From positions 496,001-560,000 of the forward strand of contig NZNV01000017.1 of assembly GCA_002695025.1 (NCBI GenBank): a stretch of DNA of 64,000 bases, read 5' to 3'. This document shows, piece after piece, positions 40,423 through 48,602 of this stretch. The stretch is from Owenweeksia sp. (GTDB lineage: Bacteria; Bacteroidota; Bacteroidia; Flavobacteriales; Schleiferiaceae). Made by a program: the position numbers and the translations under genes. Under the pieces are notes generated by a model that saw nothing but the letters and a program-made list of their open reading frames with translations, ran no database searches and had not been told where the DNA came from. Within the stretch, counting starts at the first letter, position 1. Each line of letters starts with the position of its first letter.

Positions 40423-41277
40423 ATGGGAAAAAACCTGAGATGGCCTGATTTTATTATAGGAGGCGCCCCAAAGTGCGGTACCAGCTCGCTTTATTTTTGG
40501 CTCTCAGCTCATCCTGAAATTTGTGGTTCAAAACTCAAGGAAACCTTTTTTTTTGCGGATGAGGTGAACCGTTTTAATCAGCAGGCCAATATCATTGAAA
40601 AGCCAATAGAGGAATATTGCCGCTATTTTACACATTGTCCGGCTCATACTAAAGCTTTTGAAGCTACTGCGCATTACCTCTACTATGATAATGCCCGCAT
40701 TATGCTCAAAGACCTGCCCACCAAACCTAAAATGATCTTCATCTTCAGGGAGCCTGCTGCACAGATGTACAGCCATTACCGCATGGTGCGGTATCGCATA
40801 AAAACTTACCAGGGTACTTTTAAGGATTATGTTGATAATAAGGATACCTGGTTCTATATTGAGTATGCCAAATACTTAAAGCCCTGGTTGAAAGAGTGGG
40901 GCGCTGACAGGATAAAAGTGCTCCTTTTTGAGGAGCTGATGAGCTCAAAGGAGAAAACCATGTGTGATATTGCCGAATTTTTAGAAGTGGACCCTGCTTT
41001 TTTCAAATCTTTTGACTTTGAACACCGCAATGAAACCGTAGCTATTAAGAGCAGTTTTCTGCATAAACTCGGCCTGCGCTTGCAACCCCTGATAGGTCAC
41101 CGGCTTCAAAAACTCCTCTTACCGCTCTACTTGAAAATCAACAGTTCTGACCTTAAAGGAAAAACGGATGAAGAACGGCAGTCATTGCAATCTTTCAAAC
41201 CTGTATCAGAGAGAATTACCCGTGAACTACAGGAACTGCTGCCCGAGCTGGATCTTTCTTACTGGGATAAAAGGTAA
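40423..41277 (+). CDS. Sulfotransferase family protein
   Basis: 284 aa, no signal peptide. The 5'-phosphosulfate-binding loop is PKCGTSSLY (16-24). The 3'-phosphate-binding region is seen as IFIFREPAAQMYSHYRM (about 105-121), with KVLLFEELMSSKEKT further on. Such enzymes move sulfate from PAPS to a hydroxyl of a sugar or other acceptor in the cytoplasm or at the inner membrane. The flippase gene starts at its last base, so the sulfated acceptor is probably a surface glycan precursor (inference from context). Confidence 0.85.
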   Translation: MGKNLRWPDFIIGGAPKCGTSSLYFWLSAHPEICGSKLKETFFFADEVNRFNQQANIIEKPIEEYCRYFTHCPAHTKAFEATAHYLYYDNARIMLKDLPTKPKMIFIFREPAAQMYSHYRMVRYRIKTYQGTFKDYVDNKDTWFYIEYAKYLKPWLKEWGADRIKVLLFEELMSSKEKTMCDIAEFLEVDPAFFKSFDFEHRNETVAIKSSFLHKLGLRLQPLIGHRLQKLLLPLYLKINSSDLKGKTDEERQSLQSFKPVSERITRELQELLPELDLSYWDKR

Positions 41278-42770
41278 TGGGTCTTGTAGCAAAACAGAGC
41301 CTTTATAGCTTCGCTAGCTCCTATGCCGGAATGGCATTAGGAATGCTAAATAAAATATTCTTGTTTCCTCTCGTATTTAAGGAAAATGATCAGTATTGGG
41401 GTTTACTTGAAACTTTTTTAGCCATTGCTACTATTATAGGATCCATGGGGCATTTTGGTATGCCTGGTGTTCTAAAGAGGTTTCTACCAGGAATTGAGAA
41501 AGGGAGTAAGAATTTAGTTGGTTTTACCCTGTTACTCAGTAGTGTGGGATGTATTATACTCCTGATAATCCTGTTTTTTGGAAAACCTCTAGTAGTTGAC
41601 TTTTTTGCATCAGGTGCTGATGAAGGAATGTTTTCAGCATATTATGGACTCTTGCTTCTGTTGGTTGGTATAATGCTGTTTTTCGATTATTTTTCGGCTA
41701 TACTGATATCTAATTTTAAGTCACACCTTCCAATATTTCTTAATAATGTAGTTTTTAGAGTTGGGGTTTCTTTATGCATAGCAGCTTTATACGTTTTTAG
41801 CTTTTCTCTGGAGACGTTTCTCTATCTCTATATTCTGCTATACTTGCTGAATTTATTGATCGCCATTATCTATTTGGCCAAATTAAGATTAATTGGTTTT
41901 AAACTTAACTTCAACCTTCCAGAACGATCGAGTTACCTTCAGTTTGGTTTTTTTTCAGTTTTAGCAGGTTCTTCAGGCTGGTTGATCAATTACTTGGATA
42001 CCATTTTCGTTTTTAAATTAATAGGCTCTGCCTTAGTTCCTATTTTGGCTATTTCAAAAAATATGGTGAGCCTGGTGCATGTTCCGGCCAGAGCCGTAGT
42101 AAATGCTAGTGTACCACTAATTTCTAAAGCATGGCAAAATAATGACAAGGCAGCTCTGGAGTCTATATACAAAAAATCTGCAATTACTGAAATTGTTATA
42201 GGTGGTGCGCTATTTCTGGCTATCTGGATAAATGTTGACTTCATTATATCCCTCATTCCGGATGAAAAGGGTGGTAATTCATACGCAATGGTGAAGTATG
42301 TACTGCTTATTCTGGGAGTGGGCCGCCTTATAGATCTTGCAGCAGGAGCCAATGGTGCTATAATTTCAAACTCTAAATATTATCGCTACACACTGGCAGC
42401 CAATGTTGGACTCATTATCTTGGTCATAATTCTTAATTTATGGCTTACTCCAATATTCGGAGTGGTAGGCGCTGCGATTGCATTAGGGATGGCGCTTGCT
42501 ATTAATAATGCAGCTATGGTGATTTTCTTATGGAAAGTGGAACGTATTCAGCCTTTTTCAAAAAGTCACTTGATCACTTTTGTAATCTATCTCACAATAG
42601 TGGCTACACTTAGTCATCCCTTTGAAATAAATATGTGGGTGGATCTTATAATCAGGAACTTATTATATGTGTTATTTGTCTCCGTGCTCCTTTTCTATTT
42701 TAAACCGGTGCCAGAATTAGTGCAATTGGCCCAAAGAGTAAAGCAAAAGTTATTCTTTGCGGGTAGATAA
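41277..42770 (+). CDS. Polysaccharide/oligosaccharide flippase (MOP superfamily, Wzx-like)
   Basis: 497 aa with about 12-14 membrane helices and the N-terminal pattern of polysaccharide flippases (QSLYSFASSYAGMALGMLNKIFLFPLVF). The helix segments around 350-390 carry the typical GANGAIISNSKYYRYTLAAN. It is expected to move lipid-linked glycan from the cytoplasmic to the periplasmic face of the inner membrane. Base composition is clearly more AT-rich than carB or glnN (one 60-base line, 41341-41400, is 30 % G+C), suggesting import of this gene. It overlaps the sulfotransferase gene by 1 base. Confidence 0.88.
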   Translation: MGLVAKQSLYSFASSYAGMALGMLNKIFLFPLVFKENDQYWGLLETFLAIATIIGSMGHFGMPGVLKRFLPGIEKGSKNLVGFTLLLSSVGCIILLIILFFGKPLVVDFFASGADEGMFSAYYGLLLLLVGIMLFFDYFSAILISNFKSHLPIFLNNVVFRVGVSLCIAALYVFSFSLETFLYLYILLYLLNLLIAIIYLAKLRLIGFKLNFNLPERSSYLQFGFFSVLAGSSGWLINYLDTIFVFKLIGSALVPILAISKNMVSLVHVPARAVVNASVPLISKAWQNNDKAALESIYKKSAITEIVIGGALFLAIWINVDFIISLIPDEKGGNSYAMVKYVLLILGVGRLIDLAAGANGAIISNSKYYRYTLAANVGLIILVIILNLWLTPIFGVVGAAIALGMALAINNAAMVIFLWKVERIQPFSKSHLITFVIYLTIVATLSHPFEINMWVDLIIRNLLYVLFVSVLLFYFKPVPELVQLAQRVKQKLFFAGR

Positions 42771-42831
42771 AGAGGTAAGCCTTTATTTTCTTTGTACAGA
42801 GCCTATATTCCAAATATATTAGCAATCTTAA

Positions 42832-42847
42832 TTTCAGAGCTCTGAAA
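42832..42847. promoter_or_regulatory. 16-bp perfect palindrome upstream of pseB
   Basis: TTTCAGAGCTCTGAAA reads the same on both strands, 24 bases before the pseB start. It could bind a dimeric regulator; no regulator gene is adjacent. Confidence 0.4.
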
Positions 42848-42860
42848 GAGCTGTCTTAAC

Positions 42861-42865
42861 AGGAG
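42861..42865 (+). promoter_or_regulatory. Shine-Dalgarno sequence of pseB
   Basis: AGGAG six bases before ATG 42872. A strong SD is unusual beside the other genes of this window, most of which show none. Confidence 0.5.
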
Positions 42866-42871
42866 TTTTTT

Positions 42872-43888
42872 ATGCTGGACTTAAACAATAAGTCGATATT
42901 GATCACCGGTGGTACCGGTTCTTTGGGGAAGGCTCTTACCCAAAACATTCTTGAAAAGTGGCCTCGTATCAAACGATTGGTTATCTATTCTCGCGATGAG
43001 CAAAAGCAGTTCCAGATGGCACAGGAGTTTCCGCCTGCCAGGTATCCCCAAATTCGCTTTTTTATTGGTGATGTGCGGGACTTTGAGCGTTTAAAGCGGG
43101 CTATGAAGGGTATTGAATACGTGATCCATGCTGCGGCCATGAAACATGTACCCATAGCTGAATACAACCCTATGGAGTGCGTGAAGACGAATATTCTGGG
43201 GGCTGAAAATGTGATCAATGCCTGCCTGGAAACCGATGTGGAAAATGTGGTGGCCTTATCCACGGATAAAGCTGCGGCTCCCATCAACCTTTACGGAGCT
43301 ACGAAATTGGCCTCTGACAAACTTTTTGTAGCGGCAAACAATATAAAAGGATGGAATCCGATTAAGTTTTCTGTGGTGCGCTATGGCAATGTGATGGGCT
43401 CTAACGGTTCCGTAATCCCTTTCTTCCTGCAAAGACGTAGGGAAGGTATTCTGCCAATAACCGATCCGCAGATGACCCGCTTTAATATTTCCCTGCAGGG
43501 GGGGGTGGATATGGTTTTATACGCCATGGAAAATGCCTGGGGGGGCGAAATATTCGTCCCTAAGATCCCATCGTACAAGATTACCGATGTTGCCGAGGCC
43601 ATTGGCCCTGAATGTGAAAAACCAGTAATCGGAATTCGGCCGGGAGAGAAGATCCATGAGGAAATGATTACGTCTTCTGATTCGTTTTTTACGTATGACT
43701 GTGGCAAGTATTACACGATTTTACCACAGTTGCCCCGCTTTAAACTGGATGAATTTATCTCCCATTTTAACGCTCAGAAGGTAGAGCAGGGGTTTAAATA
43801 TAATTCGGGTGAAAACCATGAATGGGTTACTGTGGAAGAGTTAAGACAGTTGATTCGTGAACATGTGGACCCTACTTTTCAAGAATAA
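42872..43888 (+). CDS. pseB: UDP-N-acetylglucosamine 4,6-dehydratase (inverting)
   Basis: 338 aa extended SDR, first enzyme of pseudaminic acid synthesis. It converts UDP-GlcNAc to the 4-keto-6-deoxy L-arabino sugar. The NADP motif GGTGSLG is at 13-19. The catalytic D132, K133 and Y141 in TDKAAAPINLYGATK sit at the same numbers as in the well-studied Helicobacter enzyme (FlaA1). AAMKHVPIAEYNPMEC and VRYGNVMGSNGSVIPFF are typical. First gene of the pse operon, with an SD and an upstream palindrome; pseC follows after 3 bases. Confidence 0.96.
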   Translation: MLDLNNKSILITGGTGSLGKALTQNILEKWPRIKRLVIYSRDEQKQFQMAQEFPPARYPQIRFFIGDVRDFERLKRAMKGIEYVIHAAAMKHVPIAEYNPMECVKTNILGAENVINACLETDVENVVALSTDKAAAPINLYGATKLASDKLFVAANNIKGWNPIKFSVVRYGNVMGSNGSVIPFFLQRRREGILPITDPQMTRFNISLQGGVDMVLYAMENAWGGEIFVPKIPSYKITDVAEAIGPECEKPVIGIRPGEKIHEEMITSSDSFFTYDCGKYYTILPQLPRFKLDEFISHFNAQKVEQGFKYNSGENHEWVTVEELRQLIREHVDPTFQE

Positions 43889-43891
43889 TTT

Positions 43892-45046
43892 ATGAAAAAC
43901 ATCCCATACGGACGTCAGGAAATAACCAAGGCAGATGAGGAAGCCGTACTGGAAACCCTACGTTCTGATTTTTTAACCCAGGGCCCTAAGATTGCGGAGT
44001 TTGAAAAGGCTTTTGCGGAGTACGTAGGAAGCCAGTATGCCGTAGCGGTTTCAAACGGTACTGCGGCTTTACATCTTTGTGCTATGGCCTTGGGTGTAAA
44101 ACCCGGGGATAAGGTAATCACCACTCCCATCACTTTTGCGGCCTCGGCCAATTGCATAAAGTATTGTGGTGGAGAGGTAGCCTTTGCGGATATTGATCCG
44201 GAGACTTTTTTAATGGATATAGCAAAAGTAAAGGAGCTCCTGGAATCTCATCCCAAAGGCACTTTTAAGGGTATAGTTCCTGTGGATTTTACCGGCTTTC
44301 CGGTAAACCTGGAAGGGTTAAGAGCGTTGGCAGATGAGTATGATCTCTGGATTATTGAGGATGCCTGTCATGCCCCGGGAGCTTATTTTATGGACAGTAA
44401 TCACCAAAAACAACTGTGTGGTAATGGTCGTTTTGCCGAACTGGCCATTTTTTCATTTCACCCGGTAAAGCATATCGCAGCGGGAGAAGGGGGAATGATC
44501 ACCACCAATGATGAAGCCCTTTATCAAAAATTACTAATGCTGCGTACGCACGGAATAACTAAAGATCCATCACTCCTGGAGAAGAATGAGGGTGGGTGGT
44601 ATTATGAAATGCAGGATCTGGGGTATAATTACCGCATAACAGATTTTCAGGCAGCTTTAGGCCTGAGCCAGTTAGGCCGGGCAGAAGCTAATCTTGAAAA
44701 AAGGCGTGATATTGCTCATAGATACGATAAAGCCTTTGCAGGAACATCCATTGGGTTACAGGAGCAAGCTCAGGAATATTCCAATGCGTTTCATCTATAT
44801 GTAATACGGGTTAATGACCGCAAGGGCTTATATGATCATTTACGGGAAAACGGCATCTATGCCCAGGTTCATTATATTCCTGTTCACACCTTGCCTTACT
44901 ACAGGCAGTTTGGCTGGAAGGAAGGAGACTTGCCCCTGGCCGAAAAATATTATTCCGAATGTTTGAGTTTACCTATGTACCCTTCGCTTACTGCTGAAGA
45001 TCAGCAGTATGTAATCGATCGGGTTCTGGAGTTTGTGGATCGATGA
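43892..45046 (+). CDS. pseC: UDP-4-amino-4,6-dideoxy-N-acetyl-beta-L-altrosamine transaminase
   Basis: 384 aa, DegT/DnrJ/EryC1/StrS aminotransferase. It transfers an amino group from glutamate to C4 of the PseB product using PLP. The PLP lysine is K193 in SFHPVKHIAAGEGG; D157 in IIEDACHAPGA binds the PLP nitrogen. VSNGTAALHLCAMALG near 53-69 and the C-terminal YYSECLSLPMYPSLT are family features. The product is the substrate for the next N4-acylation, done by PseH in other bacteria. It overlaps pseF by 4 bases. Confidence 0.95.
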   Translation: MKNIPYGRQEITKADEEAVLETLRSDFLTQGPKIAEFEKAFAEYVGSQYAVAVSNGTAALHLCAMALGVKPGDKVITTPITFAASANCIKYCGGEVAFADIDPETFLMDIAKVKELLESHPKGTFKGIVPVDFTGFPVNLEGLRALADEYDLWIIEDACHAPGAYFMDSNHQKQLCGNGRFAELAIFSFHPVKHIAAGEGGMITTNDEALYQKLLMLRTHGITKDPSLLEKNEGGWYYEMQDLGYNYRITDFQAALGLSQLGRAEANLEKRRDIAHRYDKAFAGTSIGLQEQAQEYSNAFHLYVIRVNDRKGLYDHLRENGIYAQVHYIPVHTLPYYRQFGWKEGDLPLAEKYYSECLSLPMYPSLTAEDQQYVIDRVLEFVDR

Positions 45047-45729
45047 AATCACTGGCTGTCATACCTGCACGGGGAGGAAGTAAGCGCATTCCGCGCAAGA
45101 ACATCAAAGAGTTTTTAGGAAAACCAATCATTGCTTATTCCATTGAAGTAGCTCTTAACTCAGGTTTGTTTGATGAGGTAATGGTATCTACCGATGATGA
45201 AGAAATTGCAAAGGTGGCCAAAAAATATGGAGCTAAAGTTCCATTTATGCGAAGCAGCGAAAATGCGGATGATCATTCATCAACCGCAGATGTTATTGTA
45301 GAAGTGATAACTTCTTATGAGAGCCAAAATAGATCTTTTGATTTTATCTGTTGCATATATCCTACGGCTCCTCTGATTAAAGAGAACAATCTGCATGAAG
45401 CAAAATCGCTATTAGTAGATAATTATTTTACTACGGTTTTGCCAGTTACCCCTTTCAGTTATCCAATTTGGCGTTCGTTAAAACTGGAAGGAAACAAGGT
45501 AAAAATGAATTGGCCGGAGCATCTGAATTCCCGTTCGCAGGATCTACCTCTTGCTTATCATGACGCGGGACAGTTTTACTGGTTGGATTGTAAAAAATTT
45601 TTAGCGGACCCGAGATTATTTTCGGAAATGAGCGGGGCTATAATATTAGCCGAGACCGAGGTGCAGGATATTGATAATGAGTCAGATTGGAAGATAGCTG
45701 AAGCTAAATATCAACTTAGTGATTCCTAA
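45043..45729 (+). CDS. pseF: Pseudaminic acid cytidylyltransferase
   Basis: 228 aa. It activates pseudaminic acid with CTP to CMP-pseudaminic acid. The nucleotide-binding start IPARGGSKRIPRKNIKEFLGKPI, then MVSTDDEEIA, and the central CCIYPTAPL are typical of CMP-sialate-type synthetases. DAGQFYWLD and the PseF-type spacing favour the pseudaminic branch, as does the gene context. It overlaps pseC (4 bases) and pseG (11 bases). Confidence 0.93.
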   Translation: MKSLAVIPARGGSKRIPRKNIKEFLGKPIIAYSIEVALNSGLFDEVMVSTDDEEIAKVAKKYGAKVPFMRSSENADDHSSTADVIVEVITSYESQNRSFDFICCIYPTAPLIKENNLHEAKSLLVDNYFTTVLPVTPFSYPIWRSLKLEGNKVKMNWPEHLNSRSQDLPLAYHDAGQFYWLDCKKFLADPRLFSEMSGAIILAETEVQDIDNESDWKIAEAKYQLSDS

Positions 45730-46702
45730 ACAGATAAAAATACGTGTTGACGGAAATGGGCAAATCGGTTTGGGACATGTTGTGCGGTGTTTGTCCTTAG
45801 CACACATGTTGAAAAATGACTTTAAGATCACCTTTAACCTTCGAATATCCAATGACTTTACCGGGAACTATATTGACAGCGAAGGTTTTGAAGTAAATAT
45901 TCTCAAAGATGAATTTACCTTCATCAGTTCTTTAAAAGCTTCGGATATTGTTGTGTTGGATGGCTATCATTTTGATATTGAATATCAGCATCAGGTAAAA
46001 TCCAGAGCTAAGTTGTTCTATATAGATGACTTTGGAAGGGGAGAGTATGATGTGGATTCAATTCTGAATCATGCGCCAGGCATTTCACAAAAGGACTATA
46101 GCACGAATCCTGAAACCCGTTTCTTATTAGGTCCTTCTTATGCGCTATTGAGGCCAGCTTTCTTGGAACCAAGTCATGTGCGGCCTGGTATTCCAATAAA
46201 AAATATACTGATATGCTTTGGTGGAGCTGATCCTCAAAATTTAACCTTATCGACTCTTCAGGCTCTTCATCGTAAAGATCTGTCTTTTACCATAATTATA
46301 GGAGGTGCTTATGCCTTTCAATCGGAATTGATAGCCTATATAGACCGGCTTAAAGTAGACGTTAAAATACTGCAGAATATAGGTGCACCGGACATGAAAA
46401 GAGAAATGGAATCCTCAGATCTTGTGGTTGTGCCAAGTAGTGGGATATTGTTTGAAGCCATAGCGGTTGGAGTGCCAATCATTAGTGGCTATTACGTAGA
46501 TAACCAGAAGACTATATACGAGGGTTTTAAAAAGAAACAGGTTTTTGAAGATGCCGGTAACTTTGAGCAGGAAAAGTTGCTAAATTGTATGAGTAATCTA
46601 TCGGAAACTAAAATTTTGAGTATCCTAAAAAATCAATCTGAATGTATAGATGGGTTATCGGGCGAGCGAATTTTGGAGCATTTTAAATCCCTTGCCTCAT
46701 GA
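45719..46702 (+). CDS. pseG: UDP-2,4-diacylamino-2,4,6-trideoxy-altropyranose hydrolase
   Basis: 327 aa from a GTG start that overlaps the end of pseF. PseG removes UDP from the diacylamino sugar to give the free hexose for PseI. The start KIRVDGNGQIGLGHVVRCLSLA is the family signature with the catalytic His in GLGH (about residue 19). The GT-B-like second half has ILICFGGADPQNLTLSTL and LVVVPSSGILFEAIAVGVP. The 4-acyl group here may be formyl rather than acetyl (see the next gene), so the enzyme would have to accept it. AT-rich composition. Confidence 0.92.
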   Translation: MIPKQIKIRVDGNGQIGLGHVVRCLSLAHMLKNDFKITFNLRISNDFTGNYIDSEGFEVNILKDEFTFISSLKASDIVVLDGYHFDIEYQHQVKSRAKLFYIDDFGRGEYDVDSILNHAPGISQKDYSTNPETRFLLGPSYALLRPAFLEPSHVRPGIPIKNILICFGGADPQNLTLSTLQALHRKDLSFTIIIGGAYAFQSELIAYIDRLKVDVKILQNIGAPDMKREMESSDLVVVPSSGILFEAIAVGVPIISGYYVDNQKTIYEGFKKKQVFEDAGNFEQEKLLNCMSNLSETKILSILKNQSECIDGLSGERILEHFKSLAS

Positions 46703-47562
46703 GGTTGGGTTTTTTGGCATCAGGTAAGCTTGGGTATGAAGTTTTAAATCGCTTTGTACACGATTATAAACCTGTCTTTATTGCTACTGATAGTAGTTCA
46801 CAAAACATAGTAAAGCTGGCCGGAGATTCGGATATTCCACTATTTAAGGGAAATCCAAGGAAAGGAAATCTACTGGCATTTCTGGAGACCCATGCTATAC
46901 AGGCCGATTTGGTCTTATCCATAAATTATCTCTTTCTTATTGAATCTGATCTGATTAGGCGTTTTCCCCATATTGTAAATTTCCATGGGAGCTTACTTCC
47001 CAAATACCGTGGGCGAACACCCCATGTCTGGGCGATCATTAATGGCGAAATGAAAACCGGAGTTACAGCACATCTTATTGATGAGGGGTGTGATACCGGG
47101 GATATTGTTTTACAAAATGAAGTTCCCGTCCAAGCTGAAGATACAGGAGCTGATATTTTACAAAAATTTGAGAATCTTTACCCCGACATGGTCAGTGGGG
47201 TAATTGAGAAATTCTCTACCCAAAACGTTGAGCTTAGGAAGCAGGATAATAGCAAAGCAACTTTTTTTGGTAAAAGAACACCTGCCGATGGCCTTATTGA
47301 TTGGAACTGGCAAAAAGATCGAATCAGGAATTGGGTGAGGGCTCAGGCAGCACCTTATCCGGGAGCATTCAGTTGGTATCAAGAAAAAAAGATCGTAATC
47401 GATAAGGTAGATGATTCAGATCTGGGGTTTAATCAGGATGACCCTAATGGGTTAATACTTGAAACCAGCCCGGTTCCCGTAATAAAGTGTCCTAATGGGG
47501 CAATTAAGTTAATGAGTATCAGAGAAGGGATATCCCTCAAAAAAAACGATGTATTAAAATGA
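46699..47562 (+). CDS. Formyltransferase-like protein in the PseH position
   Basis: 287 aa, methionyl-tRNA formyltransferase-like fold using 10-formyl-tetrahydrofolate. The catalytic triad N94, H96 and D132 is intact in VNFHGSLLPKYRGRTPHVWA and IDEGCDTGD, with the same spacing as in ArnA. The C-terminal part (about 205-287) is an Fmt-C-like beta domain (NWVRAQAAPYPGAFSW). It is not the housekeeping Fmt: it is translationally coupled inside the pse operon (4-base overlap with pseG and with pseI). No GNAT-type PseH lies in the cluster. Inferred reaction: N-formylation of the 4-amino group made by PseC. Known relatives formylate other amino sugars. Confidence 0.8.
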   Translation: MRLGFLASGKLGYEVLNRFVHDYKPVFIATDSSSQNIVKLAGDSDIPLFKGNPRKGNLLAFLETHAIQADLVLSINYLFLIESDLIRRFPHIVNFHGSLLPKYRGRTPHVWAIINGEMKTGVTAHLIDEGCDTGDIVLQNEVPVQAEDTGADILQKFENLYPDMVSGVIEKFSTQNVELRKQDNSKATFFGKRTPADGLIDWNWQKDRIRNWVRAQAAPYPGAFSWYQEKKIVIDKVDDSDLGFNQDDPNGLILETSPVPVIKCPNGAIKLMSIREGISLKKNDVLK

Positions 47563-48602
47563 TTGAAATAGGTGGTTTTACAGTGTCTGATGAGAGCCCA
47601 TCTTTTATTATCGCGGAGCTTTCGGCTAATCATAACCATGATAAACAAATAGCTATTGACACCATAAGAGCGGCAAAAAAAGCTGGTGCTGACGCCATAA
47701 AGCTGCAAACGTATACCCCTGATACCATCACTATAGATTGTGATAATAAATACTTTCAAATTGATCAGGGAACGCTTTGGGATGGCAGGACCTTATATGA
47801 TTTGTATAAGCAAGCTTACACTCCCTGGGAGTGGCATAAGGAGCTTTTTGCAGTTGCTAAAGAGGAGGGACTTGTTTGTTTCTCTTCACCTTTTGATAAA
47901 ACCGCGGTAGATTTACTTGAAGAGCTACATACTCCAGCTTACAAAATTGCTTCTTTTGAAATACAGGATATCCCACTCATAGAATATGTGGCGTCAAAAA
48001 AGAAACCTGTGATTATCAGTACGGGTATAGCCACCTTTGAAGATATTGAGTTGGCCGTGGAAACCTGCCGCAAAGCCGGTAATGAAGATATTATTATCCT
48101 TAAATGTACTTCTGCCTACCCCGCCCCCATTGAATTAGCTAACCTTAGAACCATGCTGGACATGAAGGACAAATTTGGGGTTCAGGTAGGACTTTCAGAC
48201 CATACCGAGGGCAATACGGTTCCAATTGTGGCTACTTCGCTGGGAGGAAAAGTTATTGAAAAACACTTTATTTTGGACCGTAGCATTGGTGGACCAGATG
48301 CCGATTTCTCATTAGACCCTACCGGTTTTAAGTCGATGGTTGATGCCGTAAGAGACGCTGAGAAGGCACTCGGGAAAGTGACTTATGAATTGAGTGAAAA
48401 AGTCCAAAAAAATCGAAAGTTTGCCCGATCCTTATTTGTGGTAAAGAATATAAAAAAGGGTGAGGTATTCACCGAGGAAAATGTTCGCTCCATCAGGCCA
48501 GGTTATGGATTGCATCCGAAACATCTGAACCAGGTGCTCGGGAAAAGGTCAACGATGAATATTGACAGAGGAACACCTCTTGGTACTTTACATTTTACTT
48601 AA
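47559..48602 (+). CDS. pseI: Pseudaminic acid synthase
   Basis: 347 aa, NeuB-family enzyme condensing the 6-deoxy-diacylamino-altrose with phosphoenolpyruvate to the nine-carbon acid. The TIM-barrel part has FIIAELSANHNHDKQIAIDTI near 18-38, KLQTYTPDTIT, CFSSPFDKTAVDLLEEL and KCTSAYPAPIELANL. The C-terminal antifreeze-like SAF domain (about 285-347) has RSLFVVKNIKKGEVFTEENV and RPGYGLHPK. Last gene of the pse operon; its end overlaps the convergent DUF2147 gene by 8 bases. Confidence 0.95.
   Translation: MIEIGGFTVSDESPSFIIAELSANHNHDKQIAIDTIRAAKKAGADAIKLQTYTPDTITIDCDNKYFQIDQGTLWDGRTLYDLYKQAYTPWEWHKELFAVAKEEGLVCFSSPFDKTAVDLLEELHTPAYKIASFEIQDIPLIEYVASKKKPVIISTGIATFEDIELAVETCRKAGNEDIIILKCTSAYPAPIELANLRTMLDMKDKFGVQVGLSDHTEGNTVPIVATSLGGKVIEKHFILDRSIGGPDADFSLDPTGFKSMVDAVRDAEKALGKVTYELSEKVQKNRKFARSLFVVKNIKKGEVFTEENVRSIRPGYGLHPKHLNQVLGKRSTMNIDRGTPLGTLHFT

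Follow-up and report, generated by a model that had tools for sequence, protein, structure and literature searches.

A predicted formyltransferase in the place of the acetyltransferase PseH in a pseudaminic acid operon of Owenweeksia sp., and its relatives across Bacteroidota

Which acyl group does a pseudaminic acid operon attach when the gene for its usual acetyltransferase is missing? Pseudaminic acid is a sialic acid relative made by bacteria. Sugars of this kind are found on flagella, capsules and O-antigens, and strains differ in the acyl group that N7 bears. The question is raised by a 64,000-nucleotide stretch of the genome of Owenweeksia sp. (contig NZNV01000017.1, positions 496,001 to 560,000; hereafter the window). 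Its pseudaminic acid operon holds a single recognised N-acyltransferase, a formyltransferase (FT), which sits where the GNAT N-acetyltransferase PseH would be expected. We consider it highly probable, on comparative sequence evidence, that this operon makes CMP-5-acetamido-7-formamido-pseudaminic acid through formylation by FT of the 4-amino group made by PseC. The substrate, formyl donor and product of FT, as well as export by the flippase, are inferred from homology, gene position, exclusion and exchange.

The window operon carries the pseudaminic acid gene set, with PseB, PseC, PseF, PseG and PseI all scoring above their NCBIfam equivalog cut-offs. Together with FT and two further genes, they form a co-directional run of eight open reading frames (ORFs) at 40423-48602:

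40423..41277, + strand: sulfotransferase-like protein of 284 amino acids (Pfam Sulfotransfer_1, 50.5 bits); heads the co-directional run and has a 1-base overlap with the next ORF
41277..42770, + strand: Wzx/MATE-type flippase-like membrane protein of 497 amino acids (Pfam MatE, 31.8 bits; cut-off 24.9); pseB lies 101 bases downstream
42872..43888, + strand: pseB, UDP-GlcNAc 4,6-dehydratase (inverting) (TIGR03589, 505 bits; cut-off 408)
43892..45046, + strand: pseC, aminotransferase making the 4-amino group (TIGR03588, 486 bits; cut-off 424)
45043..45729, + strand: pseF, CMP-pseudaminic acid synthetase (TIGR03584, 308 bits; cut-off 206)
45719..46702, + strand: pseG, UDP-sugar hydrolase of 327 amino acids, without a C-terminal GNAT (PseH) domain (TIGR03590, 190 bits; cut-off 154)
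46699..47562, + strand: FT, formyltransferase of 287 amino acids in the acyltransferase slot (PF00551 and PF02911; N94, H96, D132)
47559..48602, + strand: pseI, pseudaminic acid synthase (TIGR03586, 529 bits; cut-off 340)

An earlier note on this DNA, made from the sequence alone, described the pse genes as all lying in overlapping order. The five genes are present, but overlaps occur at only four of the five junctions. There is a 3-base gap between pseB and pseC, followed by overlaps of 4 bases (pseC-pseF), 11 bases (pseF-pseG) and 4 bases on each side of FT (pseG-FT and FT-pseI). The description of FT itself proved accurate, as a 287-residue protein with the N94-H96-D132 triad and the motif HGSLLPKYRGR, coupled by 4-base overlaps on both sides. 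The sulfotransferase-like gene is presumed to belong with the sugar by its position only. No pseudaminyltransferase was recognised beside the operon in the ORF list and Pfam scan of the window.

FT contains the two Pfam domains Formyl_trans_N (95.9 bits; cut-off 26.1) and Formyl_trans_C (44 bits; cut-off 21.1). Its catalytic-triad positions are invariant in all 71 rows of an alignment (A2) of the window protein with 70 of the 80 named FTs introduced below (270-300 amino acids, unfused). They align with N102, H104 and D140 of ArnA, which we take to be the catalytic residues of that enzyme. A further alignment (A3) comprises 34 of 35 eligible rows, with L129 (= L126) left out.

The order of the pseudaminic acid pathway is well established. 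In the pathway proposed here, PseB and PseC would convert UDP-GlcNAc to UDP-4-amino-4,6-dideoxy-beta-L-AltNAc, and FT would transfer formyl from 10-formyl-tetrahydrofolate to the 4-amino group made by PseC, where PseH would place acetyl. PseG would strip UDP, PseI would add the three-carbon unit from phosphoenolpyruvate, and PseF would make the CMP sugar; the adjacent flippase would presumably serve in export. In the nine-carbon acid, N7 would derive from N4 of the altrosamine and N5 from N2, which carries its acetyl group from UDP-GlcNAc onward. According to the available part of one article, PseH acts before PseG (PMC6388019). Because no further aminotransferase, deacetylase or GNAT lies between pseB and pseI, the amine made by PseC is the only one that the enzymes of this operon are predicted to make. 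The formyl form would be 14 Da lighter than the acetyl form, a difference that the earlier note gave correctly (one CH2).

If FT takes the place of PseH, the two should rarely share a locus, and this was examined in a phylum-wide draw of 395 Bacteroidota genomes. PseI scored over its cut-off in 56 of these genomes, at 57 places; the count left out L079 (the second, NeuB-type locus of the window's genome) and L081. A GNAT was scored as PseH-type from 50 bits upward in the locus counts and from 100 bits upward in the PseI tree described below. PseH-type GNATs were found at 36 places and FT at six (window included), with no place holding both (hypergeometric P 0.0015, ignoring kinship). At the remaining 15, which have neither, there are GNATs of other types, a different formyltransferase or nothing that was recognised. 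FT relatives with at least 50% identity occur in six of the 395 genomes, the window's included, and all six matches lie within 100 bases of the PseI match. Six of the 395 hold FT matches at 34-43% identity, and those proteins fall outside the FT clade. PseG is fused to a C-terminal GNAT in 27 of the 46 cases in the PseI sample, giving a chain of about 470-530 amino acids; the PseG of the window is unfused.

The two acyltransferase types have also been exchanged repeatedly. A PseI tree was built from 129 rows (77 FT, 35 GNAT, 1 both, 16 other). Rows were left out as duplicates (L082 and L114, on the same contigs as L035 and L044), for want of PseI (L085, L160), for a PseI below the score limit (L089, L117) or for a PseI shorter than 300 amino acids (L146, L157). 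On the best tree, the state changes between FT and GNAT at least 12 times; when only well-supported branches are counted, FT must have been gained or lost six times or more. The figure of six is the safer one, because the tree was a quick one with many weak inner branches (46 of 125 open). The balance of the two states in the tree is not the natural one, since rows were gathered partly by FT.

The arrangement is not confined to the window's genome. In a motif scan of the species genomes of GTDB, 139 stretches proved to encode an FT relative, and the best 80 of these were kept as named loci; in all 80, at least one pathway gene lies beside FT. Most come from Bacteroidota; Chloroflexi, Margulisbacteria and Kiritimatiellae each appear as the label of one contig, and one more is labelled only 'bacterium'. 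FT-type strains among them include Fulvivirga marina (L084) and Gelidibacter maritimus (L130), both with PseG, and Algoriphagus yeomjeoni (L088), with the GNAT-fold substitute for PseG described below. The set includes some duplication: L082 is on the contig of L035 and L114 on that of L044 (two of the 80 within the 57), and L126 and L129 are copies. PseI lies no more than 200 bases downstream of FT in 74 of the 80. The other six are L085 and L160, where the contig ends without PseI, L083, where an overlap was not scored, L089, where the order of FT and PseI is reversed, and L145 and L148, where the gap is longer. PseG is present in 43 of the named loci and a GNAT-fold substitute in 36, with neither in one truncated contig. 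None of these 43 PseG proteins carries a PseH-type GNAT domain, whereas 27 of the 46 from the PseI sample do. PseG is instead fused to FT in L125 and L128, mirroring the PseG-GNAT fusions (Pfam domains were seen for L128 only), and one GNAT-fold substitute is likewise fused to FT. The placement of FT in the PseH slot, as proposed in the earlier note, is thus supported by exclusion at the locus (0 of 57 with both), repeated exchange on the PseI tree and fusion of both types to PseG.

The alternative that survives best is that an unrecognised GNAT encoded elsewhere yields ordinary di-N-acetyl pseudaminic acid, and that FT modifies another sugar and merely travels with the operon. We judge this to be very unlikely. 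In agreement with the earlier note, no GNAT-like pseH is found in the window, where none of three modelled GNAT classes has a match. A search of the whole genome (99.99% complete) with the PseH model TIGR03585 returned seven matches, which would favour a GNAT elsewhere, but all are under the 93.1-bit cut-off. The best (54.8 bits) adjoins an ORF read by eye as dapF and is not in a sugar locus. TIGR03585 is weak for Bacteroidota, as seven GNATs (PseH-type and others) scanned from related Pse loci also fell under the cut-off. A Bacteroidota PseH set was therefore built, and the resulting alignment of eight GNATs of the PseG-fused type was run against whole genomes. In ten FT genomes the best match reached 38.1 bits, and that of the window's genome 26.8 bits, whereas three control genomes reached 128, 170 and 193 bits (one control having supplied an alignment row). 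A second nonulosonic acid locus, at a distance of about 97 kb on the same contig, also speaks for this alternative. A bystander would show neither the exclusion of GNAT at the 57 loci nor the fusion to PseG in two relatives.

Several observations nevertheless weigh against FT as the acyltransferase of the pathway. All ten FT genomes have weak GNAT matches at E values of 0.001 or better (20-38 bits); at E 0.001 the PseH alignment matches all thirteen genomes, controls included, and weak GNAT relatives are thus ubiquitous. One of the 80 named loci, L118, has a PseH-type GNAT (124 bits) fused behind FT, and L100, L106 and L109 carry weak GNAT matches (33-44 bits). A different GNAT class occurs within the analysed stretch in 17 of the 80, with the copy of L025 inside the pse operon itself. 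In the 36 named loci where PseG is missing, a GNAT-fold protein stands in its place, and FT is not clearly the sole candidate acyltransferase there, because the best Foldseek match of this substitute is Helicobacter pylori PseH. Finally, no PseI residue among the columns listed tracks the switch between FT and GNAT over six independent pairs; the best columns follow kinship, and with six pairs hardly any test could reach significance. The window locus is free of the extra GNAT, the PseG substitute and the FT-GNAT fusion.

Some of these loci bear on a second alternative, that the formyl group is placed by FT on another amine of this sugar, such as an additional C8 amino group or an N5 freed by deacetylation. 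An additional GNAT and additional aminotransferase-like ORFs do occur in some FT loci (L025), and Flexibacter maritimus is known to have an 8-amino nonulosonic acid, as given in the available part of PMC3210612. The window operon, with its lack of any such additional enzyme between pseB and pseI, argues against this, and we regard it as very unlikely.

Formylation of the PseC product also agrees with the affinities of FT. Among solved structures, the formyltransferase domain of ArnA is nearest to FT in sequence (119.6 bits; residues 6-277, a span of 272). A structure of methionyl-tRNA formyltransferase (Fmt) scores lower (86.1 bits), and PDB entries named formyltransferase PseJ match at up to 54.6 bits over about residues 69-151. 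An AlphaFold2 model of FT (mean predicted local distance difference test score, pLDDT, 95.9) was compared with solved structures. It aligns with ArnA 2bln at Z 30.0 (root-mean-square deviation 2.1, 280 residues, 27% identity) and with Fmt 4iqf at Z 30.4 (2.1, 282 residues, 21% identity); by the predicted fold, FT is tied between the two. PseJ is not among the 50 structural matches listed for the model, which excludes nothing. FT scores below the equivalog cut-offs of both families: 169 against 777 bits for ArnA, whose C-terminal UDP-glucuronate decarboxylase domain is absent from the 287-residue FT, and 133.7 against 201.5 bits for Fmt (TIGR00460).

All 23 pse-linked FTs in a 43-member formyltransferase tree group together (clade support 97/96; present in 99% of 200 bootstrap trees), separate from Bacteroidota genome copies, ArnA and two other types of formyltransferase from Pse loci. 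Branches outside the FT clade are long in this tree, and PseJ is not included. The genome's own Fmt-like copy (L001) was rejected as the source of the operon FT, as it groups with other Bacteroidota genome copies. That FT is a duplicated methionyl-tRNA formyltransferase with no role in a sugar pathway is extremely improbable: its predicted fold resembles Fmt and ArnA equally, but its sequence is closer to ArnA, the pse-linked clade stands apart from the genome copies, L001 among them, and position and fusions tie FT to Pse genes.

Formyltransferases of other kinds are also found in Pse loci. Those of L067, L068 and L076 were considered as members of the same family and rejected, as they fall outside the FT clade; they represent two further formyltransferase families. 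In L067 and L068, the formyltransferase adjoins a PIG-L/LmbE-like deacetylase ORF (read by eye), alongside a PseG-GNAT fusion.

The predicted reaction has a probable precedent in PseJ, which we take to be the Anoxybacillus kamchatkensis enzyme that formylates the PseC product. PseJ is the named formyltransferase of the Pse series and has the Formyl_trans_N core in common with FT (54.2 bits over 83 residues, 69-151). The two very probably catalyse the same reaction, and the reaction of FT is probably already known because of PseJ, given its presumed activity and its solved structures (PDB 6ci2, 6ci4, 6ci5, 6edk). They differ in build: the listed PseJ chain has 217 amino acids, whereas the 287 residues of FT include a C-terminal Formyl_trans_C domain, and its sequence is nearer to that of ArnA. 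FT is likely to have an origin separate from PseJ. The N-terminal domain of ArnA (UDP-4-amino-4-deoxy-L-arabinose formyltransferase) resembles FT in its two-domain architecture, its catalytic triad and a similar FG-[KR]-R-TP stretch. In contrast to ArnA, FT has no decarboxylase domain, is located in a pse operon and is expected to act on a different sugar. PseH (TIGR03585) shares the step and the operon place of FT, but its fold is unrelated, and it uses acetyl-CoA where FT is predicted to use formyl-tetrahydrofolate.

The predicted sugar has likewise been reported. As the earlier note stated, N-formyl nonulosonic acids are already known. The polysaccharide of Pseudoalteromonas distincta KMM 638, which is not a member of Bacteroidota, contains 7-formamido-pseudaminic acid, with no formyltransferase gene named in the available part of the source (PMC3210612). 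Halorubrum sp. PV6, also outside Bacteroidota, has 5-N-formyl-legionaminic acid, for which the text available presents a formyltransferase gene as suggested and unproven (PMC6137143). The accessible portion of PMC6388019 counts N-formyl as one of the acyl groups usually found on these acids. A formyltransferase in an acetyltransferase slot was inferred by the authors for fmt3 of the Geobacillus PSS1 flagellin island; in the section available, it belongs to a dTDP-3-oxo-6-deoxy-D-galactose pathway and not to Pse (PMC5109656). The suggestion that the design is new to Bacteroidota therefore stands in part: it was not found in print, but the enzymatic idea is not new, given the PseJ structures and the known sugar. 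No description of the Bacteroidota FT clade or of its repeated swap with PseH was found in the literature, with subscription journals mostly outside the search. Judged by sequence, what is new here is most likely an ArnA-like two-domain FT clade across Bacteroidota that has been repeatedly exchanged with PseH; the chemistry itself is known.

Other loci in these genomes show further variation. The second nonulosonic acid locus of the window's genome, L079, lies beyond the window in a larger polysaccharide cluster (contig 21, about 439-445 kb) and encodes a NeuB-type synthase, a cytidylyltransferase and, as read by eye, a NeuC-like epimerase. The Pse loci L025, L031 and L041 contain an extra GNAT and aldo/keto reductase-like, SpsF-like and aminomutase-like ORFs (read by eye); their product is possibly an 8-amino pseudaminic acid, by analogy with that reported for Flexibacter maritimus. 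At L118, FT and a PseH-type GNAT with an RGKG loop make up a single protein (L118:8001-9365), which may acylate two amines or allow a choice between formyl and acetyl.

A GNAT-fold protein of about 185 amino acids replaces PseG at L116:7447-8001 and at 43 other PseI loci (e.g. L030, L031, L037, L088, L154). Of 136 PseI loci, a set that still contains the few duplicates, 88 have PseG only, 44 the substitute only, none both and four neither. No PseG match at E 1e-8 was found in 19 substitute genomes searched whole (6 and 13, with no completeness figure for the 13); the same kind of search recovered PseG in all eight PseG-type genomes (5 and 3). The predicted fold of the substitute is that of a GNAT (pLDDT 94.6), with H. 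pylori PseH as best Foldseek match; by Z, spermidine acetyltransferases are just as near. Of the 44 substitutes, one has the central GxG of the coenzyme A (CoA) loop, which occurs in 35 of the 38 PseH domains and in 19 of the 21 other GNATs. This pattern was picked after two earlier ones had failed to separate the substitute from other GNATs (loose, 4 of 44 vs 5 of 21; strict, 0 vs 0). In gene order, the substitute takes the position of the hydrolase, and in almost every locus it precedes FT or GNAT (L148 shows the reverse). It is tentatively possible, though on balance doubtful, that Bacteroidota Pse operons have two slots that are each filled by unrelated proteins: an acyl slot (PseH-type GNAT or FT) and a hydrolase slot (PseG or the GNAT-fold protein without a CoA loop). 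If this is true, the GNAT fold would have been turned into a UDP-sugar hydrolase, of which we know no example. The window locus has the PseG form.

The formylation proposed for the window operon would have consequences for the family as a whole. If it is true, genome sequence alone would predict whether members of Bacteroidota display the formyl or the acetyl form of pseudaminic acid, because a locus hardly ever has both FT and a PseH-type GNAT. The ArnA-type FT is a candidate tool for making formyl-pseudaminic acid. In addition, the exchanges on the PseI tree provide at least six well-supported natural swaps for asking what the extra methyl group does.

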